DNA from: Winogradskyella flava
GTDB lineage: Bacteria; Bacteroidota; Bacteroidia; Flavobacteriales; Flavobacteriaceae
Direction of reading: 5' to 3'
DNA length: 64,000 nt
NCBI RefSeq assembly: GCF_014243395.1
Contig: NZ_JACLCP010000001.1
Span: 1,364,001 to 1,428,000, forward strand
Part shown: positions 12,928-61,428 of the stretch, in pieces
Layout of the letters: each line of letters opens with the position of its first letter
Numbering within the stretch: the stretch's first letter is position 1
Notes under the pieces: generated by a model
What the model was told of the DNA's origin: nothing
The model's database searches: none
The model's input: only the letters and a program-made list of their open reading frames with translations
Program-made: the position numbers and the translations under genes

Positions 12928-12928
12928 G

Positions 12929-14272: not shown

Positions 14273-14275
14273 AAT

Positions 14276-15475
14276 TTGAAAAGACGCGCATTTATTAAGA
14301 AAACGACTGTGGCAACTGCAGGTATAGCTGGTACTTCATATTTATATGGGAATATACTATCTAATATAAATGCTAATACAACTATTAATATTGGTGTTAT
14401 TGGTACAGGAGTTCGAGGAAGTGGACTCATGTCAATGATTAACGGAATTGACCATGTAAATGTAATTGCTGGTTGCGACGTTTTACCATTTAGATTAAAT
14501 AAAGGTTTAGCCAAAGCGAATTCAAAACCCAAAGGCTATTCAGATTACCGAAAGCTACTGGATAATAAGGATATCGATGCTGTCATTGTCGCAACACCTT
14601 TTAATACCCATTCTAAGATTACAATTGATGCACTCGATGCAGGCAAGCATGTATTTTGCGAAAAGACATTGGCTAAAGGTTATGACGGCATTCGTGATTT
14701 GGTGAATAAAGCAAAGCACTCTAAAAACATATTTCAAACAGGGCATCAATATCATAGTTCAAGGCTTTATACGCATGTTGTTGATTTAATTAAAGAGGGA
14801 AAAGTTGGGGATATTACTGCATTTGAATGTCAATGGAATAGGCATGGCAATTGGAGAAGACCAGTTCCTGATCCAAAGTTCGAAAAAGCAATAAATTGGA
14901 GAATGTACCGAGAATTTTCTGGAGGACTTACCGCCGAATTAGGCTCGCACCAAATCGATTTTGTCAATTGGGTACTTAATGAAACCCCAAATCAAGTGAT
15001 GGGTATCGGAGGTGTTGATTACTGGAAAGATGGAAGAGAAACGTATGATAATGTACATCTTATATATAGCTACCCAAATGGAGTTAAAGCGAATTTCACT
15101 TACTTAACTAGTAATGCTAAAGATGGTTACCAAATAAAGGTCATTGGTGATAAGGGCACCATAATCATTGATATGAAAAATGCATGGTTTTATCCAGAGG
15201 GTAAAAAGAAGAATAAAGTTCTTGGAGATGTAGATGGTGTAAGCGGAGCTACCGTTCAATGGGATAAAGATAAAGGCTATAAAATTGATGTTGAGCATTT
15301 AGATCCAAGTAAACAGGCATTACTTGATTTTAAGTCGTCAATAACGAATAATAAAATTCCTGAATCAAACGTTGTGACTGGTGCAAAAGCTGCCGTCTGT
15401 GTTCAAATGGGACTTGATGCTATGTATAAGAATGATATTGTTAAATGGGATGAGACCTTATTTAAAAATAGTTAA
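14276..15475 (+). CDS. second Tat-exported Gfo/Idh/MocA-family oxidoreductase
   Basis: This 399-residue paralogue of the previous gene starts with TTG 3 nt after its stop. The Tat signal is KRRAFIKKTTVATAG. Rossmann fold: INIGVIGTGVRGSG (about residues 37-50). The family lysine is in CEKTLA (Lys130), and GSHQIDFVNWVL carries the catalytic His/Asp pair. It is about 50 residues shorter than its neighbour and only moderately similar. Tandem pairs of this family often do successive oxidation and reduction steps on the same sugar. That reading is inference. Confidence 0.9.
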   Translation: MKRRAFIKKTTVATAGIAGTSYLYGNILSNINANTTINIGVIGTGVRGSGLMSMINGIDHVNVIAGCDVLPFRLNKGLAKANSKPKGYSDYRKLLDNKDIDAVIVATPFNTHSKITIDALDAGKHVFCEKTLAKGYDGIRDLVNKAKHSKNIFQTGHQYHSSRLYTHVVDLIKEGKVGDITAFECQWNRHGNWRRPVPDPKFEKAINWRMYREFSGGLTAELGSHQIDFVNWVLNETPNQVMGIGGVDYWKDGRETYDNVHLIYSYPNGVKANFTYLTSNAKDGYQIKVIGDKGTIIIDMKNAWFYPEGKKKNKVLGDVDGVSGATVQWDKDKGYKIDVEHLDPSKQALLDFKSSITNNKIPESNVVTGAKAAVCVQMGLDAMYKNDIVKWDETLFKNS

Positions 15476-15481
15476 TTAAAA

Positions 15482-16900
15482 ATGAATTTCAGGTTTTTTT
15501 TACTTCTTTTTTTTCTTTGTAGTGCATTGTTAAATGCACAAATAGAGTTGCCATCATTTTTTGGAGACAATATGGTTTTACAACAAAATGGGCAGGTTCC
15601 AATTTGGGGTAAGGATGTTCCTGGGACTGCAATACGTATAAACTCAAGTTGGGGGAAAAGTGTTACAGTTGTTGTAGATAAAAACGGATTTTGGTATGCC
15701 AAAATTAAGACAAAAACGGCTTCTTTTAATAAAGAAACCTTAGAGATTATAGGAAGTGCCACGGTAAAAATAAAAAATATTCTTATCGGAGAAGTTTGGC
15801 TCTGTTCGGGCCAATCCAATATGGAAATGCCTATGAAAGGTTTAGGTAAATCCAAGGTTTTAAATGCTGAAGAGTATCTTGATAATTCAACTAATGAATT
15901 TATTAGGTTATTCAACAATCAAAGGACCGCAAGTGTTTCTCCAAGTTTTGATGTTAATGGTGAATGGGAAGTATCAAATAAAGCGTCCGCGCATTCATTC
16001 AGTGCAATTGGATATATTTTTGGAGTAAAATTATTTGAACAACTCAATGTCCCTATCGGAATTATTGAATCTGCTTGGGGAGGTACAAGAATAGAATGTT
16101 GGATGCCAAAGGAAAAATTATTAGAGTATGAAGACGTAAAATTTTCAAAAACTTTACCTGTAGAACAGAATAAACAAAAGAAACCTTCTTTTCTTTATAA
16201 TGCCATGATTTATCCTTTTAAAGACTTTAAAATCAAAGGATTTCTTTGGTATCAAGGAGAGTCAAATAGAACTAATCCGTTGCCTTATAAGAACTACATG
16301 AAAGATTTAATTTCTTCATGGAGGCATCAATGGAAAGATAATAAATTACCCTTCTATTTTGTGCAAATAGCACCTTTCGACTATGCCATCCATAAAAATG
16401 CTCCAGGAATGGGAGCTAATTTAATTCGTGAGGCTCAATTGAAAATTTCCCAAGAAATATCAAATACTGGAATGGTTGTAAGCACCGATGCTGGAGACTG
16501 TAATGATATTCACCCTTCAAAAAAAGAGATAGTAGCTAAAAGGTTAGCAAATATGGCACTTACGAATCAGTATAAATTAAAGGATTTGAAATACAGAAGT
16601 CCAGAGTTTCGCTCAATGTCGGTTGAAAAAAATAAGTCAGTAGTGCTTTCTTTTAACTTTTACGATAATGATATTTTCATAGAAAATAAAAATATCAAAG
16701 GTTTTGAGGTTGCTGGTTCAGACAATATCTTTTATGAGGCACGCGCCATTACAGACAAGAACAATAAGAAGATAATTCTACATAGTCAAAATGTTGCTAA
16801 GCCAATTGCCGTTAGGTATGGTTTTGAAGATTGTTTTGAAAACAACTTAATGACTAAATCAGGATGGCCTGTTTCTGTTTTTAGAACTGACGATTGGTAA
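15482..16900 (+). CDS. secreted sialate O-acetylesterase-like SGNH esterase
   Basis: This is a 472-residue exported carbohydrate esterase (signal peptide ending LLNAQ). The SASA/DUF303 SGNH signature is LCSGQSNMEMPM (about residues 107-118), with Ser112 in GQSN as the likely nucleophile. A late DIHPSKKE segment supplies the catalytic His of a DxxH motif. An N-terminal beta-sandwich (FGDNMVLQQN...VPIWG) is typical for the family. It follows the oxidoreductases by 6 nt, so it is in the same operon. It implies an ester-decorated substrate, or promiscuous use of the family. Sialic acid itself is unlikely here. Confidence 0.85.
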   Translation: MNFRFFLLLFFLCSALLNAQIELPSFFGDNMVLQQNGQVPIWGKDVPGTAIRINSSWGKSVTVVVDKNGFWYAKIKTKTASFNKETLEIIGSATVKIKNILIGEVWLCSGQSNMEMPMKGLGKSKVLNAEEYLDNSTNEFIRLFNNQRTASVSPSFDVNGEWEVSNKASAHSFSAIGYIFGVKLFEQLNVPIGIIESAWGGTRIECWMPKEKLLEYEDVKFSKTLPVEQNKQKKPSFLYNAMIYPFKDFKIKGFLWYQGESNRTNPLPYKNYMKDLISSWRHQWKDNKLPFYFVQIAPFDYAIHKNAPGMGANLIREAQLKISQEISNTGMVVSTDAGDCNDIHPSKKEIVAKRLANMALTNQYKLKDLKYRSPEFRSMSVEKNKSVVLSFNFYDNDIFIENKNIKGFEVAGSDNIFYEARAITDKNNKKIILHSQNVAKPIAVRYGFEDCFENNLMTKSGWPVSVFRTDDW

Positions 16901-17040: not shown

Positions 17041-20000
17041 ATGCGAAAAAAGAGTTTTTTAATCCTAATTACCGGCATTTTATATGCTTTGAGCCCATTA
17101 AATGCGCAACAAAAGAATGGTAACGAAAAGCCTAATATAATATTTATTCTTACAGACGATCAGCGTTTTGACGCAATCGGCTATGCTGGGAATAAGTTTG
17201 TTGAAACTCCTGAAATGGACAATTTAGCTAAGTCAGGAACGTACTTCAATAATGCCATAGTAACAACACCAATTTGTGCGGCAAGTAGAGCGAGTATTTT
17301 AACGGGTTTGCATGAGCGCGCTCATAACTTTAACTTTCAAACAGGAAACATTAGAAGCGAATATATGGATGATTCATACCCAACGCTTCTCAAAAATAAT
17401 GGATATCACACAGGTTTTTATGGTAAGTATGGCGTGCGTTATGATGATTTAGATAAGCAGTTTGACGAGTTTGAATCTTACGACAGAAATAACCGATATA
17501 AGGACAGAAGAGGCTATTATTATAAAACACTAGATAATGATACGGTGCATTTAACACGTTATACAGGTCAAAAAGCACTCGATTTTATTGATCATAATGC
17601 GACGAATGAAAAGCCATTCTGTCTGTCATTAAGTTTTAGTGCACCTCATGCTCATGATGGAGCTCCAGAACAATATTTCTGGCAGAATACTACAGATAAA
17701 CTTTTAGAAAACGCAGTGATTCCTGGACCACAACTTGGAGATGATAAATATTTTGATGCGCAACCAGACATTGTAAAGAAAGGATTTAATTGGTTACGTT
17801 GGACATGGCGTTACGATACTCCAAAAAAATATCAACACAGTTTAAAAGGCTACTACCGTATGATTTCTGGAATCGATTTAGAAATCAAAAAAATCAGAGC
17901 TAAATTAAAAGAAAAAGGACTCGATAAGAATACAGTCATCATAGTTATGGGTGATAATGGTTATTTTTTGGGAGAACGTAAATTGGCTGGAAAATGGTTA
18001 ATGTATGATAACTCCATTCGTGTGCCACTAATCGTTTTTGATCCTAGAGCAAATACCCATCAAGATGTTAGTGATATGGCACTAAATATTGATGTGCCAT
18101 CTACAATCGTTGATTTAGCGGGAATAGAAGCTCCGGAAACATGGCAAGGAAAGAGCCTCATGCCTATCGTTAATAAAGAAACAAAAACCATCGATAGAGA
18201 CACTATTTTAATCGAACATATTTGGGACTTTAGTGAAATTCCTCCAAGTGAAGGTGTTAGAACTAAAAAATGGAAATACTTCAGATATGTTAACGATAAG
18301 TCCATTGAAGAGCTCTATGATTTAGAGAAGGATTCACAAGAAATTAAAAATCTTGTTGGTAAGAAGAAATACAAAGACATCTTAGATAACTTAAGAGCTA
18401 AAACGGATGAGCTAATCAAAAAAAACAGCAACAAATTTAGAGCTGCACCTACAGATTTAACGGTAGAATTAATAAGAGAGCCAAGTAAAGATGTAAAGAT
18501 TTTCGATTTAAAACCAGAATTCGGGTGGACAGTCCCTTTAGGTGCAAAATACCAAGGAGCTTATCAAATTTTAGTAGCATCAAATAAGACTGATATTGAT
18601 AATAATAATGGAAATGTTTGGGATAGTGGTAGAGTGGCATCTATAAAATCTACGGATGTTGAGTATGAAGGTAAAGCTTTAGAAATTGGAAAAACCTATT
18701 ATTGGAAAGTTAGAATTTGGGATGAAGCCAACAGATTAGTTGACTATGCAGAAGCACAACAGTTTACTACAGGAAAGAGCGATAGTTACATCATTTCAAC
18801 AGAAAATAAATTCGTTACCACAGAAGTTAAACCAGCAAAGTTTGAAAAAAGAGGTGATTTTTATTTCATTGATTTTGGGAAAGCGGCTTTTGCAACCATG
18901 GATTTTACCTATAACGCTAAAACACCGCACACCTTAACCATACATGTAGGTGAAATGGCCGATGATAATGGGAACTTAAATAGAACACCACCTAAAAAAA
19001 GTAATATTCGCTATCAAGAAATTAAAGTGGATGTAAAACCTGGTCAGACGAAATACCAGATTAAAGTTCATGAAGACGAACGTAATACCAGAGCGAATAA
19101 AGCCGTGCCTTTACCAGACGGTTTTCCACCTCTAGTACCATTTAGATACGCAGAGGTAGAAGGTGCTCAAAACGACCTTAAAGCTGAAGATTTTACGCAA
19201 TTAGCATTTCATACCTATTGGGATGAAGAAACCAGTAGTTTTGAGAGTAATAACGATATTTTAAATCAAGTTTGGGATTTATGTAAATACTCAATTAAAG
19301 CTACCACATTTAATGGGCTTTATGTAGATGGTGATAGAGAACGTATTCCTTATGAAGCTGATGCCTATTTAAATCAATTAAGCCATTATACAACAGATAG
19401 AGAGTTTGCCATTGGCAGACGAACTATTGAGTATTTTATGAAGAATCCTACATGGCCAACAGAGTGGCAACAACATGTCCCTTTATTGATTTATGCAGAC
19501 TACATGTACACAGGTAATACCGAACTTATTGAGCGTTATTACGAACCTTTGAAACATAAATCATTATTCGAATTATCTAATGAGGATGGTCTCATAACAT
19601 CGACTAAGGTTGATGCGGAATTCATGAAAAAATTAGGTTTCCCAGAGGGTTATAAAAAGCCATTAACGGATATAGTGGATTGGCCTGGAGCGAACTTTAA
19701 TGGAAGCAAAACTAAAGGGGAACGCGATGGTTTTGTGTTTAAACCTTATAGTACGGTAATTAACTCATTCTTTTATGAGAACATGAAAATCATGGCAGAG
19801 TTTGCAAAGATTCTTGGGAAAACACAAGAAGCTTTGGACTTTGAATATAGAGCAGTCAAAGCTAAAAAAGCAGTTAATGAACAGATGTTCGATGCAGAAC
19901 GTGGTATCTACGTCGATGGTATAGGTACAGACCATGCCTCGCTTCATGCTAATATGATGCCTTTAGCCTTTGGATTAGTTCCAGAAGAGCATTTTGAATC

Positions 20001-20568
20001 TGTTGTAAATTATGTAAAATCCAGAGGGTTGGCTTGTAGTGTATATGGTGCTCAATTTTTGATGGATGGTTTATATAATGCTGGTGAAGCTGATTACGCA
20101 CTAGATTTATTAACGGATACCTCTGATAGAAGTTGGTATAATATGGTGAAAATTGGTTCTACGATTACGCTAGAAGCTTGGGACAACAAATACAAGAATA
20201 ATCTAGATTGGAACCATGCTTGGGGAGCCGTACCTGCAAATGTCATCCCAAGAGGATTATGGGGAATTAAACCTAAAACACCAGGATTTGGTGTGGCAAC
20301 AATTAAGCCGCAGATGAGCAAATTAAAATCGAGCGAGATAGAAGTACCAACCGTTAGAGGCACAATCAAAGGTAAATACACTTATAACGGAGCCAGATTA
20401 CAGACCTACGAAATTGAAATTCCAGGAAACATGGTTGCCGAATTTTCTCTAAACGGTTTAGATGGAAAGGACTTAATTCATAATGGAGAAAAAGTACCAT
20501 CTGCTTTTGAATCTATTAGATTATCACCAGGAAAGCACACGATACAACTAAAAATAAATTCGTTTTAA
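17041..20568 (+). CDS. sulfatase-alpha-L-rhamnosidase (S1-GH78) fusion protein
   Basis: This is a 1175-residue exported two-enzyme fusion (signal peptide ending LNAQ). The S1 sulfatase domain covers about residues 28-470: [12 protein letters not shown] metal site, then the formylglycine motif ICAASRAS with Cys79. Position 3 is Ala rather than the usual Pro of CxPSR. An Ig-like linker (about 472-580, [13 protein letters not shown]) leads to a GH78 domain (about 600-1100) with the [13 protein letters not shown] motif (763-775) and a C-terminal beta-sandwich. It would remove sulfate and then cleave rhamnose from the same chain end. Similar sulfatase-GH78 fusions are known from ulvan loci. It sits alone between promoter site 2 and a terminator. 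Confidence 0.93.
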
Positions 20569-29545: not shown

Positions 29546-30463
29546 CTAGCTTTTATTGAATTCCATTTTAAACTCCGCTAGCATTTCTTTGATAATCTCC
29601 TTAGGGTTACCATCGGATAGGCTTTCAAACGATACATAACCACGAAAATTATGTCGTTTTATCATGGCTGCCATCTTTGCCATGTCGGTAGGTCTTTTCA
29701 CTTGATTGTGATATACATGTTCTTTAATAAACCAATAATTGGCATAAGGCGCCAATTTTTCTGCCTCAGCATAAGGGTCGCTCGTGGTCCTAAGACCAGA
29801 AATATCAAGAATAAGACCGAACCATTCAGAGTCTACGCGTTCAATGATACTGATAACTTCATCTGCCGTAAATAAGAACTCATTATGGTTTTGTAAAGCA
29901 GCAATTACACCAACGTCTGCACCATGCTGAGCACAATCTTTAAAGGCATCGACCAACCACGTTTTTACTTGTTCTTTAGTGTATCCTTCAAGTTGGTTTC
30001 TCCCTGTAAAAATCCGTAAAATAGAGGAGCCAATGGTAGAAGAAATATCTAGCCAGTCTTTAATCATTTTCAAATCTCGATTTCTTGCTTCTACATCTGC
30101 GGTTACGAAATTGTTTCGTATCCCAGTCCAGGAGATGTTAAGACCTAGTTCCAACGCTCGCTTTTTTAAAGCAAAAAGTTCAGATTTTTTTGGGAGTTTG
30201 GGATAGGATGAGAAATAGTAAGCGGTCAGATCCACTGCATTGAGACCAATATCCGAAGCAAATTCCATCATATCAAAGAGGTCCATTTCACCACTTCGAA
30301 ACTCATCATTAAAGGAATAGGCGTTAACGCTGTATTGCAATCGTTTTGAAGATGCAGTTTCAGTTCTTCCTGTAGAAGAAGAAGCACTCCATAATGCAGG
30401 AAAAGATAACAGGAGAGGTGCCATTATGAGCTTCTTAATGGCATCTCTCCTGTTGTTTTTCAT
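29546..30463 (-). CDS. Tat-exported xylose-isomerase-like TIM-barrel (sugar isomerase/epimerase) protein
   Basis: This is a 305-residue protein with a twin-arginine-type signal (NNRRDAIKKLIMAPLLLS). The AP-endonuclease-2/xylose-isomerase-like barrel shows the metal-ligand pattern QNHNEF, LDISGL and a late FESLSDG. Exported members are commonly annotated as sugar phosphate isomerase/epimerase, but a phosphate substrate is unlikely in the periplasm. Together with the DUF1080 and Gfo/Idh/MocA genes at 11536-15475 it could act on a keto-sugar intermediate. It lies 44 nt downstream of the PL28 lipoprotein gene and shares its promoter. Confidence 0.85.
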   Translation of the reverse strand: MKNNRRDAIKKLIMAPLLLSFPALWSASSSTGRTETASSKRLQYSVNAYSFNDEFRSGEMDLFDMMEFASDIGLNAVDLTAYYFSSYPKLPKKSELFALKKRALELGLNISWTGIRNNFVTADVEARNRDLKMIKDWLDISSTIGSSILRIFTGRNQLEGYTKEQVKTWLVDAFKDCAQHGADVGVIAALQNHNEFLFTADEVISIIERVDSEWFGLILDISGLRTTSDPYAEAEKLAPYANYWFIKEHVYHNQVKRPTDMAKMAAMIKRHNFRGYVSFESLSDGNPKEIIKEMLAEFKMEFNKS

Positions 30464-37363: not shown

Positions 37364-37408
37364 CAGGACAAAACAGGATAGTTTATGTGAGGTGTTTTTT
37401 TAAATTAC
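37364..37408 (+). promoter_or_regulatory. PUL promoter, site 7 (unrecognised Tat lipoprotein gene)
   Basis: Repeats CAGGACAAAACAGGATAG (37364-37381) and the -7-like box TAAATTAC (37401-37408) are at the standard spacing. The start codon follows at 37431. The site begins 12 nt after the preceding T-run. Confidence 0.72.
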
Positions 37409-37430: not shown

Positions 37431-39347
37431 ATGAAAAGACGCAACTTTATTCAACTATCAACACTTGCAGGAGTAGGTTTGTCGCTTCCCATGTCTGGAT
37501 TATTAAATGCTTGTGCTGAGCATCCAGAACATTCTTTAGAATTTAAAAACTTAATCTCAAGTTTATTAAAAGATTGGTCAGATGGCATGTTGAAAGTACA
37601 AATCAATAATCCATCAAATATAGATGAACATGGCGCATTAGGTTGTCCGTCTTGTACGCATATCCATGGGCGTTGTATGGATGCTGTGTATCCTTTTTTA
37701 TATATGGCTGACAAAACAGGAGATGAAAAATATGTTGAAGGGGCTAAGTTAGTTATGCTTTGGGCAGAAAATAATGTGTCTCAAGACAACGGAGCTTGGA
37801 CGGTTATTAAAAACCCAAAATCTTGGAAAGGCATTACCATTTTTGGAGCCATCGCTTTGGCAGAAGCATTACACTATCATGGTCATGTTTTAGATGAAGT
37901 CACACGAACAGCTTGGACGAAGCGACTAGAAAAAGCAGGGCAGTACATTTACTATACATTCACCATTGATTTCACTAATATTAATTATCCTGGGACAGCA
38001 GTTTATGGTTTGGATTTAGTAGGAGACGTTGTAAAAAGAGATGATTTTAAAGCAAAGAGTAAAGAACTGGCGGAACAAGTAAAAGCTTATTTTACACCTA
38101 ATGAAGGATTACTATTTGGCGAATGCAAAAAGAGTTCCAGTAAACTGAGTGAAAAAGGGTTCCATGGCGTAGACTTAGGATATAATGTAGAGGAAACTTT
38201 AAACAGTTTGGTCATGTATGCACTTAAAAAGAATGATAAAGAACTACTTGAAATTTTAACCAAATCTTTAAATAGCCATTTAGAGTTTATGTTGCCAGAT
38301 GGTGGTTGGGATAATAGTTGGGGCAACAGAATGTATAAATGGACGTATTGGGGAAGCAGAACCTGTGATGGCAGTCAACCAGCCTTTGGCATGATGTCGC
38401 ATATTAACCCAGCATTCGGAACTGCAGCCGTGAAAAACACAGAATTATTACAACGTTGTACAGCAGATGGTTTAATTCATGGCGGACCCGGTTTTATAGA
38501 GGCAGGCATTCCACCATGTGTGCATCATACATTTACACATGCAAAACCTTTAGCAGCACTGTTAGACCATTGGGACCATTTACCAGAAATTAATTCAAGT
38601 ACGAGTTTACCAAGAATGACAGCTGATGGTGTAAAACATTTTAAAGACCTAGATGTTTTTCTATTCGCAAGAGGCGATTGGAGAGGGACTGTAAGTGCTT
38701 ATGATGCAGAGTATCATTATGAATATGATTATCGTCAGGCTTCAGGTGGAGCATTAGGTCTTTTATATCACAATAAGGTAGGATTGTTGTGTGCTGCGAG
38801 TATGGCAGAATATGCTTTGGTTGAAAAGAATAATCAACAACCTCAACCAGGAAAAGATATCTGCTTAACACCCAGAGTTGAGGTTTATAAAGAAGATGTT
38901 TGGTACACCAATTTATACGATTTACCAGCAACAATCACTTCAAAAGATGAAAATGGACCGATTGAATTATTAGCTGAAGTTAAGTTGAAAAATGTAGGTC
39001 GAGAAGAAGTGACAGAAACGGCCTCTGATTTTGATATTACATACAAGTGTTCTGCGGATATAACACAAATAAAGGTCAGTTCAAAACAAGATATTACTGA
39101 GCCAACAGCATTTGTACTGCCTATCGTTTCGCCAAATACCGAAGTTGTTACCAAAATTTCGGATAGAGAAATTACGATTGAAAAACCAGATGGTTTAGTG
39201 ACCATAAATGCTAACGTGCCTCTAAAAATAAAAGACATTGAAGGCGCTAGAACCTTTAATATGGTGCCTGGTGTTGAAGCCATTCCTTTTGAAATATTCT
39301 TTGAAAAAGATGTCAATGAATTGCTTATTTCAATAGCTGTCAGTTAA
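37431..39347 (+). CDS. Tat-exported lipoprotein of unrecognised family, possible toroid-plus-beta-sandwich lyase
   Basis: I do not recognise this 638-residue family with certainty. A twin-arginine signal (KRRNFIQLS) ends in a lipobox (LLNAC, Cys28). Residues about 35-400 look alpha-helical with toroid-like repeats (GCPSCTHIHGRC at 71-82, ALAEALHYHG, PDGGWDNSWGNR, PPCVHHTFTHAK with His365, His366 and His370). Residues about 400-638 look beta-rich. This layout resembles polysaccharide lyases with an alpha/alpha barrel and beta-sandwich (heparinase II/III-like; PL40 is a possibility I cannot test). Its promoter shares the PUL operator, so a role in substrate breakdown is likely. Confidence 0.6.
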   Translation: MKRRNFIQLSTLAGVGLSLPMSGLLNACAEHPEHSLEFKNLISSLLKDWSDGMLKVQINNPSNIDEHGALGCPSCTHIHGRCMDAVYPFLYMADKTGDEKYVEGAKLVMLWAENNVSQDNGAWTVIKNPKSWKGITIFGAIALAEALHYHGHVLDEVTRTAWTKRLEKAGQYIYYTFTIDFTNINYPGTAVYGLDLVGDVVKRDDFKAKSKELAEQVKAYFTPNEGLLFGECKKSSSKLSEKGFHGVDLGYNVEETLNSLVMYALKKNDKELLEILTKSLNSHLEFMLPDGGWDNSWGNRMYKWTYWGSRTCDGSQPAFGMMSHINPAFGTAAVKNTELLQRCTADGLIHGGPGFIEAGIPPCVHHTFTHAKPLAALLDHWDHLPEINSSTSLPRMTADGVKHFKDLDVFLFARGDWRGTVSAYDAEYHYEYDYRQASGGALGLLYHNKVGLLCAASMAEYALVEKNNQQPQPGKDICLTPRVEVYKEDVWYTNLYDLPATITSKDENGPIELLAEVKLKNVGREEVTETASDFDITYKCSADITQIKVSSKQDITEPTAFVLPIVSPNTEVVTKISDREITIEKPDGLVTINANVPLKIKDIEGARTFNMVPGVEAIPFEIFFEKDVNELLISIAVS

Positions 39348-39351
39348 AATA

Positions 39352-39396
39352 CAGTAAGGTACAGGATACAAAATAATCATAAGTTAATTATACTTG
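39352..39396 (+). promoter_or_regulatory. PUL promoter, site 8 (cytochrome/DUF1501 operon)
   Basis: Repeats CAGTAAGGTACAGGATAC (39352-39369) begin 5 nt after the stop of the upstream gene. The -7-like box TATACTTG (39389-39396) sits 27 nt from the second repeat start. The start codon at 39401 is only 5 nt after the box, so the transcript should be leaderless or nearly so. Confidence 0.76.
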
Positions 39397-39400
39397 ACTT

Positions 39401-42238
39401 ATGGAAAACTCAAATTGGATTCTTCAATTTCTTGGGCGCTTACATCCTTTATTGGTGCATTTTCCTATTGGACTTTTATTCACGGGTTTTATTTTAGAAT
39501 TGCTAACCTTAAAAGGAAAGCGAAAAGGACTTAGAGATGGCATCAGTTTTATGGTTTGTATTGGTGCAGGTTTTGCTGTTCTCTCGGCACTGTTTGGCTG
39601 GTTCTTAAAAACTCAAGAAGACTATACAGGCAATTTAGTAGATAATCATCAATACACAGGAATCGCCACTGCAGTTTTAGCTTTGATTACTGCCTTAGTT
39701 TTAAAATCAAGCTTAAAAAAATCACCTGTAAATTTAAAAGCCTATCGCATTGTATTTTTCATGACAGTCGTTTTATTGACTATTGCAGGACATTTAGGGG
39801 CGAACTTGACGCATGGAGAAGGTTACCTTGCTTCAGTATTACCTGGAAATAAAGATAATTATACAAGTAAGGAATCTGGAGCTTTACTGGCCGAACTTAA
39901 ATCGGTAGATACATTATCAGAATTACAAAAAGATAAATTAAACCTAGAAGTGAGAGGGCTTTTTGCACATAGATGCTACCAATGTCATAGTGAAAATAAA
40001 CAAAAAGGTGAACTCATTCTCGAAACAAAAGCAGGTGTTTTTAAAGGAGGAAAAACAGGATTAGCAGTCGTGCCAGGTAAGCCAGAAGAAAGTGAAATTT
40101 ACAAACGCATTTCGCTTCCAGCAAATCATAAGGACGTGATGCCAACAAAAGGTAAATTGCTAACATCAGATGAAATAGCACTTGTGAAGCTTTGGATAGA
40201 CGAAGGAGCACATTGGTCAGATCAGGCTGTTAAAATATTTCCAGAAGCTGAATTGGCTTTAGTAAAACCAGAATTACCAAAAGTTTCTGAAGAATCGCAT
40301 CCCATAGATAAAATTGTAAGTACTTATTTTGATGACAACGATGTGTCTTGGCAAGCCTTAATCGATGATCGTAAGTTTATTAAAAGAGCCTACATGGATG
40401 TTATTGGTTTACTGCCAGAACCTGAATTTATAGATGCGTTTGTAGCGGATAATAATTCTAATAAAAGAGAACGTTTAATTGATGACTTATTAAATGATTC
40501 CGAAAATTACACACAACATTGGTTAAGCTTTTGGAATGATTTATTACGAAACGATTACAGTGGTACAGGTTTTATAACTAAAGGTAGATTTCAAATTACA
40601 GAATGGTTGTATAATGCTTTAAAGGATAATAAATCTTATGACCACATGGTAACCGAATTATTGAATCCAGACAAAGAATCTGAAGGGTTTATAAAAGGAA
40701 TTCAATGGAGAGGTGTGGTAAATTCCAGTCAACGTACAGAAATGCAAGCAGCTCAAAATATTGGTCAATCGTTAATGGGTGTCAATGTAAAATGTGCGTC
40801 TTGTCATAATAGCTTTGTGAGTAATCTAACTTTAGATCAAGCCTATGGTTTTGCTTCAATTTTTGCGGAAGAACCTTTAGAACTCAATAGGTGTGATAAA
40901 CCTATTGGTAAAATAGCAAAAGTCAATTTTTTATATCCTGAACTTGGCAGTGTTGAAGGCACAACTCTAAAAGAACGTCTCTTTAAGCTTTCTAAAATAA
41001 TGATTGACAAAAAGAATGGGAGGTTGTACAGAACCATTACCAACCGTATTTGGGAACGTTTAATAGGTAGAGGCATTATTGAACCTGTTGATGAAATGGA
41101 TAACGACCCTTGGAATGCTGAATTGCTCGATTGGTTAGCTGCGGATTTTATTGATTCGGGTACAGACTTAAAGCATTTAATAAAGCGAATCATGACCTCT
41201 AAGGCATACCATTTACCTGCGGTCAATTATAAATCATCAGAACATCTAAAGCAAAACTATGTTTTTGAAGGACCTGTTTTAAGACGCTTAAGTGCAGAAC
41301 AATTTTCGGATGCTATTAGTCAGGTAATTGCACCAGTTTATGTAGCGGTAGAATTTAATCCTAATGAAGAAAAAATGCGAGCGTTACGTATTTGGCATCA
41401 TGAAAAGGATTTAACAAACACAGTATTACCATTACCTGGTAAACGGTATTTTAGAAAGGAATTCAAGCTATTAAAAGATGATATAAAACAAGCTTCAATT
41501 TTAATTTCTGTGGATGATGCTTATAAATTATTCATTAACGGAAAGCCAGTAGGAGAGGGCAATAATTGGACTGATGTTGGGAAATTTGATATTACTAAAC
41601 TTTTGACAAAGGGAAATAATGTAATTGCGATAGAAGGTAATAACCTAGGAAAGATTGATAATCCTGCCAGTATATTATTTGCAATGAAAGTAGATTTTGA
41701 AGATGGTAAAACGTTTAAGGTATTTTCAGACAAAACTTGGGTAAGTACAAACAAAGCGCCTCAAAGTAACTGGGTAAATTTAAATTTTGATGATAGTAAA
41801 TGGATGGAAGTTCGTGATTACGGAACAAATAATTGGAGTAAGCTATTAGAATTTACATTTAAAGAACATAAAGAGACCTTTGTAAGAGCAAGTTTGGTAA
41901 AACAACATCCGTTTTTAAAAGCTTTAGGAAGACCTAATCGAGAAATCGTCGCTACGACAAGAGAAGAGCAAGCAACGTTATTGCAAGCTTTGGAACTTAC
42001 AAATGGTGCTTTTTTCAATGGTATTTTAGAAGAAGGAGCAAAACAATGGCGCGATACCTATGGAAATGATAGCAATGCAATTATAGATATGCTGTATCAG
42101 AAATTATTAGGAAGGCATCCATCTTCTGACGAACAAAAGATTTTAATTGAGGCTTTAGGGAATGAACCAAGCATAGCACAAGTACAAGATGTGATTTGGT
42201 CGGTTTTGATGTCGCCTGAATTTCAATTTATAAACTAG
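39401..42238 (+). CDS. membrane-anchored cytochrome c-DUF1549-DUF1553 protein with sugar-binding-like insert
   Basis: This is a 945-residue protein. The N-terminus (about 1-145) is a DUF2231-type four-helix membrane domain (LGRLHPLLVHFPIGLLFTG, then three more hydrophobic segments). A planctomycete-type cytochrome domain has the heme motif CYQCH (192-196). DUF1549 (about 300-500) has a second CxxCH (465-469). DUF1553 begins about 540 and resumes to the end. Between about 655 and 815 a beta-sandwich resembling galactose-binding domains of GH2/GH78 enzymes is inserted (FRKEFKLLKD, AYKLFINGKPVGEG). Function is unknown. The heme motifs suggest redox chemistry on a glycan at the membrane. It is followed 19 nt later by DUF1501. 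Confidence 0.85.
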   Translation: MENSNWILQFLGRLHPLLVHFPIGLLFTGFILELLTLKGKRKGLRDGISFMVCIGAGFAVLSALFGWFLKTQEDYTGNLVDNHQYTGIATAVLALITALVLKSSLKKSPVNLKAYRIVFFMTVVLLTIAGHLGANLTHGEGYLASVLPGNKDNYTSKESGALLAELKSVDTLSELQKDKLNLEVRGLFAHRCYQCHSENKQKGELILETKAGVFKGGKTGLAVVPGKPEESEIYKRISLPANHKDVMPTKGKLLTSDEIALVKLWIDEGAHWSDQAVKIFPEAELALVKPELPKVSEESHPIDKIVSTYFDDNDVSWQALIDDRKFIKRAYMDVIGLLPEPEFIDAFVADNNSNKRERLIDDLLNDSENYTQHWLSFWNDLLRNDYSGTGFITKGRFQITEWLYNALKDNKSYDHMVTELLNPDKESEGFIKGIQWRGVVNSSQRTEMQAAQNIGQSLMGVNVKCASCHNSFVSNLTLDQAYGFASIFAEEPLELNRCDKPIGKIAKVNFLYPELGSVEGTTLKERLFKLSKIMIDKKNGRLYRTITNRIWERLIGRGIIEPVDEMDNDPWNAELLDWLAADFIDSGTDLKHLIKRIMTSKAYHLPAVNYKSSEHLKQNYVFEGPVLRRLSAEQFSDAISQVIAPVYVAVEFNPNEEKMRALRIWHHEKDLTNTVLPLPGKRYFRKEFKLLKDDIKQASILISVDDAYKLFINGKPVGEGNNWTDVGKFDITKLLTKGNNVIAIEGNNLGKIDNPASILFAMKVDFEDGKTFKVFSDKTWVSTNKAPQSNWVNLNFDDSKWMEVRDYGTNNWSKLLEFTFKEHKETFVRASLVKQHPFLKALGRPNREIVATTREEQATLLQALELTNGAFFNGILEEGAKQWRDTYGNDSNAIIDMLYQKLLGRHPSSDEQKILIEALGNEPSIAQVQDVIWSVLMSPEFQFIN

Positions 42239-42257
42239 TAAGAATCGCTTTTGAATT

Positions 42258-43736
42258 ATGAAGGATAAAAATAGCAAGGTTAATTCGCGTAGAGAATTTA
42301 TAAAAAAGATGACTGCAGCAAGTTTGGCGGCTTCTGCAACAAGCATTCCTTTAGCAAGTTTTTTAAGTTCCTGTTCGCCCGAAGTTCAGAAAAGAGCAGC
42401 CACAGCAGATAGTGTTATTTTACTTTGGATGGCTGGCGGTATGGCGCATACCGAAACATTTGACCCTAAAGCTTATGCACCTTTCGAAAAAGGTTTAGAG
42501 ACCAATAGAGTATTAAGTACATTTCCAAAACATCCCACAGTAGTTGATGGACTAGAGTTTTCCGAAGGATTACAATCTATTGGAGATGTAATGGACAAAG
42601 GAGCTATTATAAGATCATATAAAGCAGCCGATTTAGGACACATTTTACATACAAGACATCAATTTCATTGGCACACTTGTTATGAACCACCGCAATCGGT
42701 TCAAGCACCTCATATTGGAGCATGGATTGCAAAAGAATTAGGGCCAGCAAATCCTGTAATCCCACCTTTTATTTCAATGGGACAACGTTTTACAATGGGC
42801 GAAGCCGAAGAATTAAAAGCGTTTCATACAGCCGGATTTTTAGGAAGCGAATACGGGCCATTTTTAATTCCAGATCCATCTGAAGGTTTAGATAGTGTAC
42901 GTCCACCACAAGGCATGTCCTTAAAACGTTTTGAAGCACGCTACAAACTTTATAAAGAATTGGCTAATAAAAGTGAAGTGATGGAGCAGGCTGGCGACTA
43001 TCAAAGAGAATCGCTAATGCGCTCTATGGAACAGTCGTACCGACTTTTAAATTCGCCAGAAGCCAAAGTATTTGATTTATCTCAAGAATCTAAAGAAAAA
43101 TATGACACCTACAATACAGGTCGTTTTGGGTTGGGTTGTTTATTAGCAAAACGTTTGATTGAAAACGGAGGACGATTTATTAGTGTGTCAACAGAATATG
43201 AGCCATTTTTAGGTTGGGATACACATGCTAACGGACATACCAGAGCAAAACAAATGAAAGCTTTAATTGATAGACCAGTGGCACAATTAATTAAAGATTT
43301 AGATGAATCTGGTCACTTAGATAGAACCTTGGTTATTTTGGCGAGTGAATTTAGTAGAGATGCCATTATGGAAGGAAGGCCAGGAGAAGAAGTTAAGGAT
43401 CAAGCAAGTAGACAACCAGATAAAATAGAGCATATTCGCCATTATGGGATGCATCGTCATTTTACAGATGGTGGTTCCATATTAATTTGGGGAGGTGGTG
43501 TTCAAAAAGGATTGGTTTACGGAAAAACAGCAGATGAAAGACCCTGTGTTTCTATAGAAAATAAAGTGGTAATAGATCAAGTGCATCAATCTATTTATCA
43601 CGCATTAGGTATCGATTCTCAAACCCATTACGAAATCGAAGGCAGGCCATTTTACACCACACCAGATGGAAAGGGTCAGCCTATATTGGATTTGTTCGGA
43701 AAAGAAATAAAATCATCAAAAGAAAATGTCGCTTAA
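42258..43736 (+). CDS. Tat-exported DUF1501 protein (alkaline-phosphatase-fold)
   Basis: This is a 492-residue protein with a Tat signal (NSRREFIKKMTAASLAAS). Typical DUF1501 segments are LLWMAGGMAHTETFDPKA, GWDTHANGHT and GGVQKGLVYGKTADE. The usual EFGR motif reads ASEFSRD. DUF1501 proteins have a predicted alkaline-phosphatase/sulfatase-type fold and accompany DUF1549/DUF1553 proteins, especially in Planctomycetes. The reaction is not established. Candidates are desulfation or a step coupled to the upstream cytochrome. It is the middle gene of a three-gene operon. Confidence 0.87.
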   Translation: MKDKNSKVNSRREFIKKMTAASLAASATSIPLASFLSSCSPEVQKRAATADSVILLWMAGGMAHTETFDPKAYAPFEKGLETNRVLSTFPKHPTVVDGLEFSEGLQSIGDVMDKGAIIRSYKAADLGHILHTRHQFHWHTCYEPPQSVQAPHIGAWIAKELGPANPVIPPFISMGQRFTMGEAEELKAFHTAGFLGSEYGPFLIPDPSEGLDSVRPPQGMSLKRFEARYKLYKELANKSEVMEQAGDYQRESLMRSMEQSYRLLNSPEAKVFDLSQESKEKYDTYNTGRFGLGCLLAKRLIENGGRFISVSTEYEPFLGWDTHANGHTRAKQMKALIDRPVAQLIKDLDESGHLDRTLVILASEFSRDAIMEGRPGEEVKDQASRQPDKIEHIRHYGMHRHFTDGGSILIWGGGVQKGLVYGKTADERPCVSIENKVVIDQVHQSIYHALGIDSQTHYEIEGRPFYTTPDGKGQPILDLFGKEIKSSKENVA

Positions 43737-43751
43737 AAATGTATTGCAATC

Positions 43752-44852
43752 ATGACAAAGTCTAAAATCGGTCGTAGAACATTTATCAACACCACAGCCA
43801 AAGCAGGTATAGGTTTAGCGATTGTTCCTCATTTTAATATTTTAAAGTCGAAGCCGAAAATGTATGATACCATTATAGGTCATGGAGATTTTAAATATAA
43901 AGTGCATAAATCATGGGGAGATTTAGATAGAGCCGTAACACCTGTGAAAAATTGTCATGAAATGGTTATGGACTCTAAAGGCCGATTGATTATGGTAGGT
44001 GACAACACCAAGAATAATATTTTGATTTATGACAAATCAGGAAAGCTTCTCGATTCTTGGGGAATTCGTTATAAAGGTGGTCATGGTTTGTCGTTATGGA
44101 ATGACGGTTCCGAAGATTTTTTATTTATCTGTGATGCTAAAGGAGAAAGCGTCATTAAAACAACAACAGACGGCAGAGAGTTGATGATTATCGGGCATCC
44201 CTCTAAATACGGAGCTTATGAAAAAAAAGATGCGTTTAAGCCAACGGAGAGTGCCATTGGTCCTAATGGCGATATTTATATAGCAGATGGCTATGGCTCA
44301 AATTATATTCTTCAATTTACAAAAGATGGTGAGTTTATTCGAAAAATAGGAAGTGGTAGAGGTACGGAAAAAGACCAATTTCAAACGGCACATGGTGTTT
44401 GTATCGATTACAGAGGTGATGGCGAGCCCACTTTACTAATCACATCGAGAGCTGCAAATTGCTTTAAACGGTTTACACTAGATGGTACATATATTGAGCA
44501 AATAGATTTGCCAGGAGCCTTTGTATGTCGTCCTGTAATTCATAATAAAAACTTATACTCTGGCGTGTGTTGGTCTTCAGAAACCGATTATGTAGAAAGC
44601 GACCAAAGTACACATCCATTTAAAACAAGTCCTAAATCAGGTTTTGTAACTATTTTAGATGAAAAAGGAAAAGTAGTGTCTAATCCAGGCGGAACAAAGC
44701 CTAAGTATAAGAAAGGAAAGTTACAACGCATGGTTCAGGACCGACCTATTTTTCGTCATTGCCACGATGTCTGTGTCGATAATGATGAAAACGTATACGT
44801 CTGCCAATGGAATGCCAACAAGGCCTATCCTATAAAATTAGAACGTGTTTAA
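43752..44852 (+). CDS. Tat-exported NHL-type six-bladed beta-propeller protein
   Basis: This is a 366-residue protein with a Tat-type signal (IGRRTFINTTAKAGIG). NHL/6-bladed propeller repeats are visible: DSKGRLIMVGDNTKNNILIYDKSGKLLDSWG, GPNGDIYIADGYGSNYILQFTKDGEFIRKIGSG, and FRHCHDVCVDNDENVYVCQWNANK at the C-terminus. This pattern also occurs in the peptidyl-glycine lyase-like propellers. It is the third gene of the cytochrome/DUF1501 operon (15-nt spacing) and probably a binding or enzymatic partner. The exact role is unknown. Confidence 0.82.
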   Translation: MTKSKIGRRTFINTTAKAGIGLAIVPHFNILKSKPKMYDTIIGHGDFKYKVHKSWGDLDRAVTPVKNCHEMVMDSKGRLIMVGDNTKNNILIYDKSGKLLDSWGIRYKGGHGLSLWNDGSEDFLFICDAKGESVIKTTTDGRELMIIGHPSKYGAYEKKDAFKPTESAIGPNGDIYIADGYGSNYILQFTKDGEFIRKIGSGRGTEKDQFQTAHGVCIDYRGDGEPTLLITSRAANCFKRFTLDGTYIEQIDLPGAFVCRPVIHNKNLYSGVCWSSETDYVESDQSTHPFKTSPKSGFVTILDEKGKVVSNPGGTKPKYKKGKLQRMVQDRPIFRHCHDVCVDNDENVYVCQWNANKAYPIKLERV

Positions 44853-44948: not shown

Positions 44949-45812
44949 TTAATCTCTACAATGATTAATGTCTTTAAATTGAATATGTGCAGTTTTATCT
45001 CCAGTATCACTTGTGCCATAAGCACCATATCTTGTATAAACTCTTTCAGTAGTATGGTTATGTACTATGTGTTTTTCTGTACCTCCAACTTTTATTTTCG
45101 AAAATGCTGTGTTAGATGAATTATATCCTGTTTCATATCTAAAAGTATATTCTTGCCCGTAGTTAATGGTTTTGAAATTTGTTATTGTTCGACCTCCTCC
45201 ACTTGGTGTGTAAGGATTTGTCGTTACATGAGTTTCTAATCTAATTTTATCAACACCTTTTTCTGTAACTTTTCTGGCGTATAATAAAAATTGTGCACTA
45301 CTATTCTTTTTAAGTGCCTCAACCCCTTTTTTAATTATACCGCCTGCATGAGATTGAATAATACATGTATTGCCATCGCTTAAATCATAAATTCTAAACC
45401 TGCCAGTAAGTACTGTTTCTTTATTGGGGCTGCGAGAAAGGTTGTTGAAAAATCGTTCCACTCTAGTTTTAGTATTATTATATCTTATAGTGCCTCCTAT
45501 AATTTTGTATCTACCCCAACCTCCTGAAATATTATCATAACCTCCATAACTTTCACTAGTTCTACAGTCTAGGGTTCCCTTATTATTAGGACTCGATACA
45601 TCAGAACAGGACTGAGGTGATCCTGGACCAAGGTTTGGAAACGATGTGTCACAACTTGCTTTTGCATGTAATTCCGTCAAGTCTGTTGATTCTTGTAAGG
45701 TAGATTCATCAACTGATGAATCTATTACGTCATTTGTAGAGCAAGAAATAGAAATAGTTAATAATAGAATTAAAGCTATATTTTTTAGATTTAGTAGATT
45801 ACTTTTTGTCAT
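44949..45812 (-). CDS. divergent jelly-roll lyase-like lipoprotein
   Basis: This is a 287-residue lipoprotein (SISC, Cys24). After a Cys-rich linker (about 50-85) comes a beta-rich domain whose motif order resembles the PL28-type proteins in this window: GGWGRYKIIGGTIRYNNTKTRVERF, TGRFRIYDLSDGNTCIIQSHAGG, then YTRYGAYGTSDTGDKTAHIQFKDI at the end. QSHAGG sits where the lyases have QAKGKH, and YGAYG.. matches the final strand. Overall similarity is low. It is probably a PL7/PL28-superfamily enzyme, but it could be a binding-only relative. It is monocistronic, driven by minus-strand site 9. Confidence 0.6.
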   Translation of the reverse strand: MTKSNLLNLKNIALILLLTISISCSTNDVIDSSVDESTLQESTDLTELHAKASCDTSFPNLGPGSPQSCSDVSSPNNKGTLDCRTSESYGGYDNISGGWGRYKIIGGTIRYNNTKTRVERFFNNLSRSPNKETVLTGRFRIYDLSDGNTCIIQSHAGGIIKKGVEALKKNSSAQFLLYARKVTEKGVDKIRLETHVTTNPYTPSGGGRTITNFKTINYGQEYTFRYETGYNSSNTAFSKIKVGGTEKHIVHNHTTERVYTRYGAYGTSDTGDKTAHIQFKDINHCRD

Positions 45813-57664: not shown

Positions 57665-58672
57665 ATGAAAAAAAAAATATCCAAAATTGCGCTTCTATTT
57701 ATACTTTCAATAGTATCCAATCAAACGTTTTCTCAAACCGCAACTTGCGATGGTATATTACCTTTTGAAGAGGAGAATGGGTTACTAACTATTGAAATGG
57801 AATCCGGTATCTTACCTTCTGGGTCAGATTGGCAAACTGGTAGTGAAGCTGATCCCAATTTACCTGGATCGACCATAAATTATATATATTGGGATGGGCC
57901 ACAGTCTTTCAATGCATTAAGTGGAGCTCCTATTACTTACAATATAAAAATTAATAATCCTGGTACTTACAGACTCGCATGGCGCGGAAGAATAGGTACA
58001 GGTACCTCAGGAGGAGAACACAATGATGCATGGCTTCGTATAGTAGCTGATGACTTTTATGCTACTAATCAAAACAATGCAACGGCTACTCCTCAGTTAG
58101 AGCCAAGGCCTAGTTGTGTCAGTAATCCAGATAGAGATTGTCCAGCAGGTTCTAGTACTAATGGGTATTTTAAAGCCTTTATGAATAGACACCCTGTAAA
58201 TCTCCCTGTCGATCAGCGTTGGGGTTTCGTTACAAATACAAACGATGGTAGTTCTTTTAGGTTTATATGGGCCACTTTTAATGCTCCAGGTAATTATTCC
58301 GTTATTGTAGATGCTAGGTCTAGTTTCTTTTTTATGGATAAAATGGTATTGCGCAGAACGGATGTTTCTGATAGTACAGCATTTAATTTAAATAATCCAG
58401 AGTCTTCCTGCTACGACGCTTTATCTATAAATGATGTAAACAAATCAGAAACAAAAATTTACCCAAACCCAACAATGGGGGAAATAGAAATTAGCAACCT
58501 ACCTATAAATTCTAATTTAACTATTTTTAATTTTTCTGGAGCCATCATCAAGGAGATACACACAACAAAATCATTAGAAATTATTGATGTTAGTGATTTA
58601 GAAAGCGGTATTTATTTTATATCCAATTCTGATAAAAATAATTATTTTGTAAAAAAAATCATTAAAATATAA
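57665..58672 (+). CDS. secreted carbohydrate-binding-module-like protein with T9SS domain
   Basis: This is a 335-residue secreted protein (signal peptide ending TFSQ). Residues about 30-235 form a beta-sandwich of CBM type (LLTIEMESG, GTYRLAWRGRIGTG, FRFIWATFNAPGNYSVIVDARSS) with no hydrolase motif that I can identify. The C-terminus (about 260-335) is a T9SS sorting domain (KIYPNPTMGEIEIS). It sits between GH3 and a sulfatase in the site 12 operon. A glycan-binding or scaffolding role at the surface is the simplest reading. An uncharacterised enzyme family cannot be excluded. Confidence 0.75.
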   Translation: MKKKISKIALLFILSIVSNQTFSQTATCDGILPFEEENGLLTIEMESGILPSGSDWQTGSEADPNLPGSTINYIYWDGPQSFNALSGAPITYNIKINNPGTYRLAWRGRIGTGTSGGEHNDAWLRIVADDFYATNQNNATATPQLEPRPSCVSNPDRDCPAGSSTNGYFKAFMNRHPVNLPVDQRWGFVTNTNDGSSFRFIWATFNAPGNYSVIVDARSSFFFMDKMVLRRTDVSDSTAFNLNNPESSCYDALSINDVNKSETKIYPNPTMGEIEISNLPINSNLTIFNFSGAIIKEIHTTKSLEIIDVSDLESGIYFISNSDKNNYFVKKIIKI

Positions 58673-60573: not shown

Positions 60574-61428
60574 ATGAAAAAAATTACTTTAAAAATTAGC
60601 GCATTTGTATTATTTGCAATGTCTGCGCTTCAAGTACAGGCTCAGAATTGTCCTGAACTATGGCTTGAACCAGGTGTTTATAAACTTGCAACGTGCGGTC
60701 TGACTACGGAATTTTATATGACCATTGATGGTACTTCTGGCGAGTTAGTATGGGCTGAAGAATTAGCAGGTGATGATGCAACACAACTTTGGACTGTAAT
60801 AGACCATAGAGAGCCAGCTTCTTCTGGATATGTGGAAATTACTGCAGACATCACACCTGGTCCTGGAGCCTTTACCATGATTGTAGATCAATCAACTTAT
60901 GATGGGTCTGGAGCAGATCCTGAAATTAGAGTTAATGTTAGACCTGGTCTGCCGGTAAGCGATACAAATGATGCAAACTACGGTTATGACCAGTTTCAAA
61001 GAAGAAAAGCGACTGGTTGGAGCGGTGCTGGAAATAATGCATTGTTCGCTAAACCTGTAGGACAAGGAAACTTAAGATATAGTGTAGCTCCAACGGCAGC
61101 AGGTGATCAAGTACTGTTTCAAAATGGGGGTACAATTAACGATATTCGTTTCATTCTTGTTGAAGCATTAAGCACTGAAGAGTTTGATGCGAGTTCTGTT
61201 TTTATCTCAAACCCTGTGAAAGATGAATTAAAAATAGAGGGCTTGAATCAAAGCATTAAACAAATTTCTGTGTATGACTTACTTGGAAAACAAGTAATTA
61301 ATAGTAATCTTGTAGATGATACAACTTCAGCTAATTTAGATGTAAGTTCATTAAATAGTGGTTTATACATTGTGAAATTAGAAGGAGAAAACGGTCAGAG
61401 TCTCACCAAAAAAATAATAAAAGAATAA
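60574..61428 (+). CDS. secreted T9SS protein of unknown function, possible binding module
   Basis: This is a 284-residue secreted protein (signal peptide ending VQAQ). Residues about 25-200 are a single beta-rich domain starting CPELWLEPGVYKLATCGLTTEFYM, with QLWTVIDHRE and GNNALFAKPVGQGNLRYS. The spacing of strands is reminiscent of a beta-trefoil, but I cannot assign a family. Residues about 205-284 are a T9SS sorting domain (ISNPVKDELKIEGLN...SGLYIVKLEGENG). The dedicated promoter and terminator suggest it is made in quantity, perhaps as a secreted substrate-binding protein. Confidence 0.7.
   Translation: MKKITLKISAFVLFAMSALQVQAQNCPELWLEPGVYKLATCGLTTEFYMTIDGTSGELVWAEELAGDDATQLWTVIDHREPASSGYVEITADITPGPGAFTMIVDQSTYDGSGADPEIRVNVRPGLPVSDTNDANYGYDQFQRRKATGWSGAGNNALFAKPVGQGNLRYSVAPTAAGDQVLFQNGGTINDIRFILVEALSTEEFDASSVFISNPVKDELKIEGLNQSIKQISVYDLLGKQVINSNLVDDTTSANLDVSSLNSGLYIVKLEGENGQSLTKKIIKE

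Follow-up and report, generated by a model that had tools for sequence, protein, structure and literature searches.

A cytochrome, DUF1501 and NHL-propeller gene trio in an ulvan utilization locus of Winogradskyella flava as a candidate periplasmic redox unit

Two domains of the planctomycete cytochrome/PSD family are present in 41 copies each in Rhodopirellula baltica, and the study that describes them suggests a redox function, without a test (PMC2754498). A study of freshwater Verrucomicrobia proposes action on mono- or oligomers, likewise without a test, and lists the domain Bac_rhamnosid_N (PMC5615132). Our literature search found no tested function for DUF1501 or for DUF1549/DUF1553/PSCyt. 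Here we analysed a 64-kb stretch of the Winogradskyella flava genome (contig NZ_JACLCP010000001.1, positions 1,364,001 to 1,428,000; hereafter the window) that contains one gene of this family, termed CYT, followed by a DUF1501 gene and an NHL-propeller gene. We tentatively favour the reading that this trio is a periplasmic redox unit which would act on rhamnose-containing oligosaccharides and exchange electrons with the quinone pool.

The window trio shares the domain architecture, the partner genes, the proximity of sulfatases and the presence of carbohydrate-binding module (CBM)-like domains with the PSCyt1-PSCyt2-PSD1 proteins of Planctomycetes and Verrucomicrobia, as far as the available parts of the two studies describe them (PMC2754498, PMC5615132). 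It differs from the planctomycete type in that CYT has an N-terminal DUF2231 fusion and a CBM67-type lectin domain that splits PSD1, the DUF1501 protein has HRHF in place of RDHH and the unit lies under the operator of a polysaccharide utilization locus (PUL). The DUF2231 fusion, the placement of the CBM67-type domain, the active-site-like residues of the propeller and the ulvan phyletic pattern go beyond what those parts of the two studies report. The initial annotation of this DNA had described the combination as common in Planctomycetes; it is found there but not only there, as 82 of the 299 Flavobacteriaceae genomes sampled contain PSCyt2, in varied neighbourhoods. The phyletic counts, from this family sample and from one of 68 genomes of the genus, are raw genome counts that ignore relatedness.

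A second related system is the classical flavobacterial cassette (loci L091-L130), in which CYT and DUF1501 are followed by NHL and a CHB_HEX lipoprotein, both optional, and a DUF2231 cytochrome. Its gene order is like that of the window, its NHL proteins are 42-55% identical to the window's and its CYT matches by profile with an E-value of 1.9e-52. Unlike in the window, a gene of its own encodes the membrane cytochrome, Pfam scans of two PSCyt2 proteins gave no CBM67-type match and some loci lie beside GH92/GH20 or sulfatase genes. The gene set is not ulvan-specific; its ulvan form is a fusion variant of this wider cassette. DUF1501 genes also directly follow a larger partner gene in DUF1800-DUF1501 pairs, of which two lie in this genome and others are reported, with a Tat motif, in PMC5122149; these pairs differ from the trio in lacking heme motifs. 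A C-terminal Pfam DUF1800 match (1.3e-4; 6.5e-4 in a sister genome) raised the possibility that DUF1549/DUF1553 is homologous to DUF1800, which if true would unify both DUF1501 partners; the idea was rejected, as profile comparison gave probabilities of 0.8% and 5%.

Domains and conserved residues of the three proteins

The three open reading frames (ORFs) are intact, start with ATG on the same strand and encode proteins of 945, 492 and 366 residues, with gaps of 19 bp between CYT and DUF1501 and 15 bp between DUF1501 and NHL (Table 1). Pfam matches of CYT over the cut-off are PSCyt1 (3.6e-14), PSCyt2/DUF1549 (8.6e-44) and PSD1/DUF1553 (2.4e-40), along with two domains that the initial annotation did not name, DUF2231 (5.7e-12) and Bac_rhamnosid_N (2.3e-7). 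The order is DUF2231 (residues 14-137), PSCyt1, DUF1549 and a DUF1553 domain split by the lectin insert, and the two CxxCH motifs are C192-H196 in PSCyt1 and C465-H469 in DUF1549. Structures were predicted for CYT, with moderate quality (pLDDT 75, pTM 0.58), and for DUF1501. DUF2231 is modelled as four long helices, which are predicted to anchor CYT in the membrane. Its residues H15, H20, H83, H131 and H138 are conserved in 20/20 fused and 35/35 separate DUF2231 proteins (H138 in 34/35), and these five histidines may bind a b-type heme, with a possible quinone-facing role. The CxxCH residues C192, C195 and H196 together with M247 are present in all 55 of these proteins (20 fused, 35 separate), consistent with PSCyt1 being a predicted His/Met c-heme domain; its profile matches include FoxE (5.2e-8) and hydrazine synthase alpha (6.1e-6).

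The insert in DUF1553 is related by fold and by sequence to the rhamnose-binding CBM67. Its best fold match is to residues 131-294 of 3w5m (Z 18.1, root mean square deviation (rmsd) 2.4, 138 residues aligned, 25% identity), and phmmer gave 8.9e-15 to 3w5m and 1e-22 to the fungal lectin 6t0q. The fold is thus shared with the CBM67 of Streptomyces avermitilis Rha78A (3w5m/3w5n) and with the Pleurotus ostreatus lectin 6t0q. The CBM67 ligand residues Asp179, Asn180 and Trp203 align with D705, position 706 and W723 of CYT. Asp179 and Trp203 thus have matching residues in CYT, and D705 and W723 are invariant in the 29 full-length fused CYT proteins, a count that leaves out truncated copies. Unlike the Rha78A module, the window domain sits inside a cytochrome protein and has Asp at the Asn180-equivalent position. 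Among the 11 CYT proteins at least 68% identical to the window's (the ulvan-type group) position 706 is D (5), N (5) or Y (1); it is H in all 17 other flavobacterial fused CYT proteins and D in the Bacteroidia outgroup.

The second protein matches DUF1501 with 4.4e-74 and begins with a twin-arginine translocation (Tat)-type sequence, SRREFIKK, recognised by inspection. Its model has an alkaline-phosphatase fold (Z 20.4 to 7cba, rmsd 3.4, 252 residues aligned), and a profile alignment to 30 sulfatases reaches a probability of 95% over 100 columns. In this alignment the sulfatase DHG falls on E364-F365-S366 and the second-site Asp-His pair has no counterpart. Residues D321, H323, E364, R367 and H401 show no variation across 11 window-subfamily proteins and 40 classical DUF1501 proteins, and the E-F pair is likewise constant in 27/27 of alignment A1. 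The HRHF signature of the window subfamily is seen in 13 fetched relatives, which include a Candidatus Hinthialibacteria metagenome-assembled genome (MAG). Judged by these residues, the metal site is probably reduced and mononuclear.

The third protein matches NHL with 1.4e-7 and begins with the Tat-type sequence GRRTFINT. It resembles the peptidyl-alpha-hydroxyglycine amidating lyase (PAL) structure 3fvz in being a propeller in which zinc-ligand histidine and catalytic tyrosine positions align. In the sole significant segment (33 bits, i-E 2.5e-7) H111, Y181 and H214 meet chain positions 94, 163 and 199, while H338 meets position 295 only in a weak, non-significant second segment. By one offset these four residues would be PAL His585, Tyr654, His690 and His786, the histidines being zinc ligands and the tyrosine catalytic in PAL; the substrate arginine 533 is seemingly not kept. 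H69, H111, Y181, H214 and H338 are present in 41/41 homologues examined. The window NHL differs from PAL in that the likeness is confined to the 33-bit segment and the protein is bacterial, with a Tat-type start and no amidation context. Since TRIM-type propellers give better total E-values than PAL, kinship to PAL is a lead and not proof. Taken together, the three protein families, the membrane anchor, the two heme motifs, the alkaline-phosphatase fold and the two Tat-type starts named in the initial annotation all held up.

Table 1 Features of the trio and its operator sites in the window
Feature	Position	Strand	Basis or description
Operator site before the 638-residue protein gene (37431-39347)	37364..37382	+	Matrix score
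Operator site before CYT	39352..39370	+	Direct repeat of period 10, CAGTAAGGTACAGGATACA; leave-one-out matrix score 19.1
CYT	39401..42238	+	Pfam, conserved residues, structure model, fold search
CBM67/Pleurotus-lectin type insert, CYT residues 653-814	41357..41842	+	Fold and sequence match
DUF1501 protein, Tat-type start, alkaline-phosphatase fold, partial metal site D321 H323 E364 H401	42258..43736	+	Pfam, model, fold search
NHL propeller, Tat-type start, PAL-like residues H111 Y181 H214 H338	43752..44852	+	Pfam, PDB alignment, conservation

Operator, distribution and neighbourhoods

The window is an ulvan PUL with PL28 lyase, GH88/105-type, GH78, GH106, GH43, GH3 and GH5 genes, three sulfatases and three SusC/D-type pairs, one SusC scoring below the cut-off. 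The trio belongs to this PUL by its location and by a common operator. Intergenic regions of the window have a direct repeat (period 10) around CAGNATAGTACAGGATA in common, and a matrix was built from sites chosen by eye with the site before CYT left out. Scored with this matrix, the left-out site takes rank 10 among all positions of the 64-kb window, both strands included, and neither five Markov-shuffled versions of the window nor 19 kb from another part of the genome contain a site as good; the initial claim that the trio shares the operator of the glycan enzymes is borne out. Higher-scoring sites precede TonB-dependent transporter, PL28, GH78, GH5 and other PUL genes. The flanks on both sides of the window hold more sites, two of them scoring at or above the CYT site, and one high-scoring flank site precedes a gene that we read, unscanned, as presumably encoding xylulokinase. 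The identical 19-mer lies upstream of the CYT orthologue in L011, L012 and L024 and is weaker or absent in others; among 12 upstream regions of ulvan-type CYT genes, 5 score at least 14, 5 score lower (5 to 10) and 2 have no site.

CYT is the sole PSCyt2/PSD1 gene found by a search of the genome. In the genus, CYT occurs in 3/68 and PL28 in 4/68 genomes, with CYT in 3 of the 4 PL28 genomes and 0 of the 64 others, which upholds the proposed link to ulvan use. In the family sample, fused ulvan-type CYT occurs in 22, PL28 in 17 and both in 6 of 299 genomes; the 6 are exactly those with a CYT at least 69% identical to the window's, the other 16 being 59-66% identical. NHL is at least 87% identical in 6 of 8 genomes with both CYT and PL28 (the remaining two have contigs that end inside the unit) and at most 63% identical in 12 PL28 genomes without CYT. 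Thus NHL tracks CYT and, in the genus, ulvan-type CYT tracks the ulvan lyase. The trio stays together in all 10 ulvan-type stretches that are long enough (L011-L016, L018, L226-L228), one ulvan-type locus having it next to the rhamnose transporter gene rhaT. The cultivable relative Psychroserpens algicola Dm15 has genes 93-98% identical to those of the window. A Polaribacter locus (L013:5583-14317) contains two ulvan-type CYT-DUF1501 pairs in tandem, one with Y at the lectin residue, and the extra pair has no NHL. In the sister clade, NHL directly follows the fused pair in 0/16 loci and comes after a second, classical pair in 3/16.

To describe the neighbourhoods of classical copies, 40 stretches, one per genome, were taken from high-scoring hits together with 40 control stretches from the same genomes. 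DUF1501 is present in 40/40, NHL in 29/40 and a separate DUF2231 cytochrome gene in 35/40, with none of these in the controls. Since the cytochrome that is a separate gene of the same cassette is fused to CYT in the window, the parts presumably work together. Dehydrogenase genes adjoin other CYT copies: GMC dehydrogenase plus gluconate-2-dh3 in L114 (1/40 loci) and a 2Fe-2S plus molybdenum hydroxylase pair in L234 and L236. Genes like the two Gfo/Idh/MocA oxidoreductases of the PUL, Gfo1 and Gfo2, lie in 6/40 cassette loci against 1/40 controls and in 0 against 1, respectively. These dehydrogenases support an electron-linked function. Some sister-clade pairs adjoin SusC/D, sulfatase, DUF1080, AP_endonuc_2 or molybdenum hydroxylase genes and others no recognised partner; no glycan-like neighbour was seen by eye, from N-termini only, in L017, L019, L020, L023 and L025.

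Enrichment of neighbours depends on the reference set. An excess of glycan genes near cassettes (21/40 against 9/40, Fisher p 0.01) was discarded because cassette loci had supplied part of the references; when all references were derived from the window, the counts were 11/40 and 8/40, with no clear enrichment. DUF1080 was not enriched either (1 against 2 in controls, 40 stretches each). A Pfam tally is less biased: it gave 12 sulfatases and 10 GH92 among 226 neighbour proteins (392 ORFs minus cassette genes and ORFs under 150 residues), against at least 3 (at most 4) and at least 2 (at most 3) among 251 control proteins (ORFs of at least 150 residues, counted over the initial 9.3 kb of every control stretch); the loci with GH92 are alike and hence not independent. 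In L100, L109, L112 and similar loci the classical cassette has GH92, GH20 and asparaginase-type genes as neighbours, and we read these loci as N-glycan-type. In a MAG titled Opitutus sp. an ApbE flavin transferase gene (L041:8503-9459) directly follows a CYT-DUF1501-NHL-DUF2231 cassette, hinting at a flavinylated partner there.

Proposed function and alternative readings

Each major ulvan repeat contains rhamnose-3-sulfate, according to PMC8511951. From the domains, conserved residues, operon and distribution, all observed directly, we infer a scheme in which the lectin insert would hold rhamnose-ended ulvan oligosaccharides, CYT and DUF1501 would jointly form the oxidising centre that acts on the sugar, electrons would reach the quinone pool from the c-heme by way of DUF2231 and the NHL propeller would then cleave or hydrolyse the oxidised product in a lyase or lactonase step. 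The oxidising centre is placed within the trio because Gfo1 of the PUL does not track CYT. The heme-linked oxidation suggested at the outset stands as a direction only. The suggested step in polysaccharide breakdown stands in its link to ulvan, with the qualification that the trio is accessory, as CYT is missing from 11 of the 17 genomes of the family sample that have PL28; it would be an add-on that assists in finishing particular oligosaccharides and not the core of ulvan breakdown.

Those 11 genomes are among several observations that weigh against the proposed redox unit. The operon at 11536-16900 that encodes the Gfo enzymes has none of the 30 best operator sites. The two further DUF1501 genes of this genome each follow a DUF1800 gene that lacks CxxCH, so that redox activity is no necessary property of DUF1501. 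The region of DUF1549/DUF1553 gave no fold match in a search that barely covered it, as residues 9-133 and 653-808 were the only parts of CYT that at least one fifth of the rows spanned. In the lectin, a truncated CYT (L020) has S at position 706 and lacks the Trp, and the residue-706 switch follows clade lines, so that a single event may account for it. Near classical cassettes SusC/D genes are found in 3/40 stretches, less often than in controls (10/40), and the literature holds, by our search, no tested activity for any of the trio's families.

Another reading, which we consider unlikely, is that CYT-DUF1501 is merely an electron-acceptor hub, with DUF1501 and NHL as assembly or docking partners, and that separate periplasmic Gfo/Idh/MocA, GMC or molybdenum hydroxylase enzymes oxidise the sugar. 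Such dehydrogenases do adjoin other CYT copies, and the PUL holds two Gfo/Idh/MocA genes with Tat-type starts as well as DUF1080. However, Gfo1 is kept (at least 79% identity) in 7 of 12 PL28 genomes without CYT, so it does not depend on CYT as acceptor; this pattern, which also bears on the redox unit, gives no support to CYT as acceptor for the Gfo/Idh/MocA enzymes of the PUL and does not show the co-occurrence with the trio that a 3-keto-glycoside pathway implies. Moreover, BLAST finds neither a Gfo1- nor a GMC-type gene in 34/40 classical stretches, and the PAL-like residues of NHL suggest an enzyme. These residues, with zinc and Tyr positions kept in 41/41, are also in line with a two-step oxygenase-lyase as in peptide amidation, where quinol electrons would pass via CYT, O2 would be activated at the DUF1501 metal, a C-H beside an ether or sulfate ester would be hydroxylated and the propeller would split the product. 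The membrane cytochrome and the conserved D/H/E/H set of DUF1501 fit this scheme, but no known oxygenase family was matched, the DUF1501 metal is putative only, and NHL was not found in 11/40 classical loci and is not beside the fused pair in 16/16 sister-clade loci; we hold it to be quite improbable.

A non-catalytic membrane sensor or scaffold that binds oligosaccharides and reports the redox state has slightly less still to recommend it: the lectin insert, the propeller, the LRR (leucine-rich repeat) and Fn3-like domains in cassette partners and the HTH_18 regulators near classical copies (16/226 against 5/251 control proteins) are in line with it, but heme, His and metal-like residues are conserved and regulator genes are common near PULs. 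To DUF1501 as a hydrolase, a sulfatase or phosphatase with an accessory cytochrome, we give the lowest probability. Its fold, its profile homology to sulfatases and the sulfatases nearby point that way; against this, the formylglycine motif C-x-P/A-S/A-R is absent from the window DUF1501 and from 40/40 classical relatives, the sulfatase DHG is replaced by the invariant E-F, and the PUL already has three motif-bearing sulfatases (CAPSR, CSPSR and CAASR). Desulfation by DUF1501 is therefore unlikely, and the 'unusual desulfation' put forward in the initial annotation has lost ground.

A broader reading, which strikes us as quite a long shot, is that the planctomycete cytochrome/DUF1501/NHL set cleaves glycans oxidatively on the plan of peptide amidation, with exchangeable lectin inserts that set the sugar specificity, here for ulvan rhamnose; a heme/metal step would activate an oligosaccharide C-H and the PAL-like metal propeller would break the ether or sulfate ester bond. 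The window copy is single in its genome and has a defined polysaccharide context, a common operator, a clade-linked lectin residue and a candidate propeller active site, and therefore makes the question of what this family does directly testable in a cultivable flavobacterium.

Other genes of the locus

The gene that abuts the trio upstream (37431-39347, +) encodes a 638-residue protein with a Tat-type start for which Pfam and NCBIfam scans gave no match; the same gene lies directly upstream of CYT in L011, L012, L024 and L228, and its product could be a P29-type oligosaccharide dehydratase. The gene run at 11536-16900 comprises DUF1080 (two stretches), the two Gfo/Idh/MocA oxidoreductases and a SASA esterase. 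Homologues of Gfo1 at least 79% identical are present in 12 of 19 other PL28 genomes searched, and Gfo1 may therefore be a core 3-keto-type ulvan step. An AP_endonuc_2 TIM barrel with a Tat-type start (29546-30463, -) is encoded downstream of an operator-bearing PL28 lyase gene, and its homologues in G145 and G132 are recorded with one in-frame TGA each.

The window also encodes a 1175-residue sulfatase-GH78 fusion (17041-20568, +) and a divergent PL28-like protein (8e-10; 44949-45812, -), possibly a binding protein or an altered lyase. Two proteins with type IX secretion tails and no other Pfam domain are encoded at 57665-58672 and 60574-61428 (+), the former with homologues 70-74% identical in L013 and L228. 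In L142 (G157), one TAA interrupts the DUF1800 reading frame.

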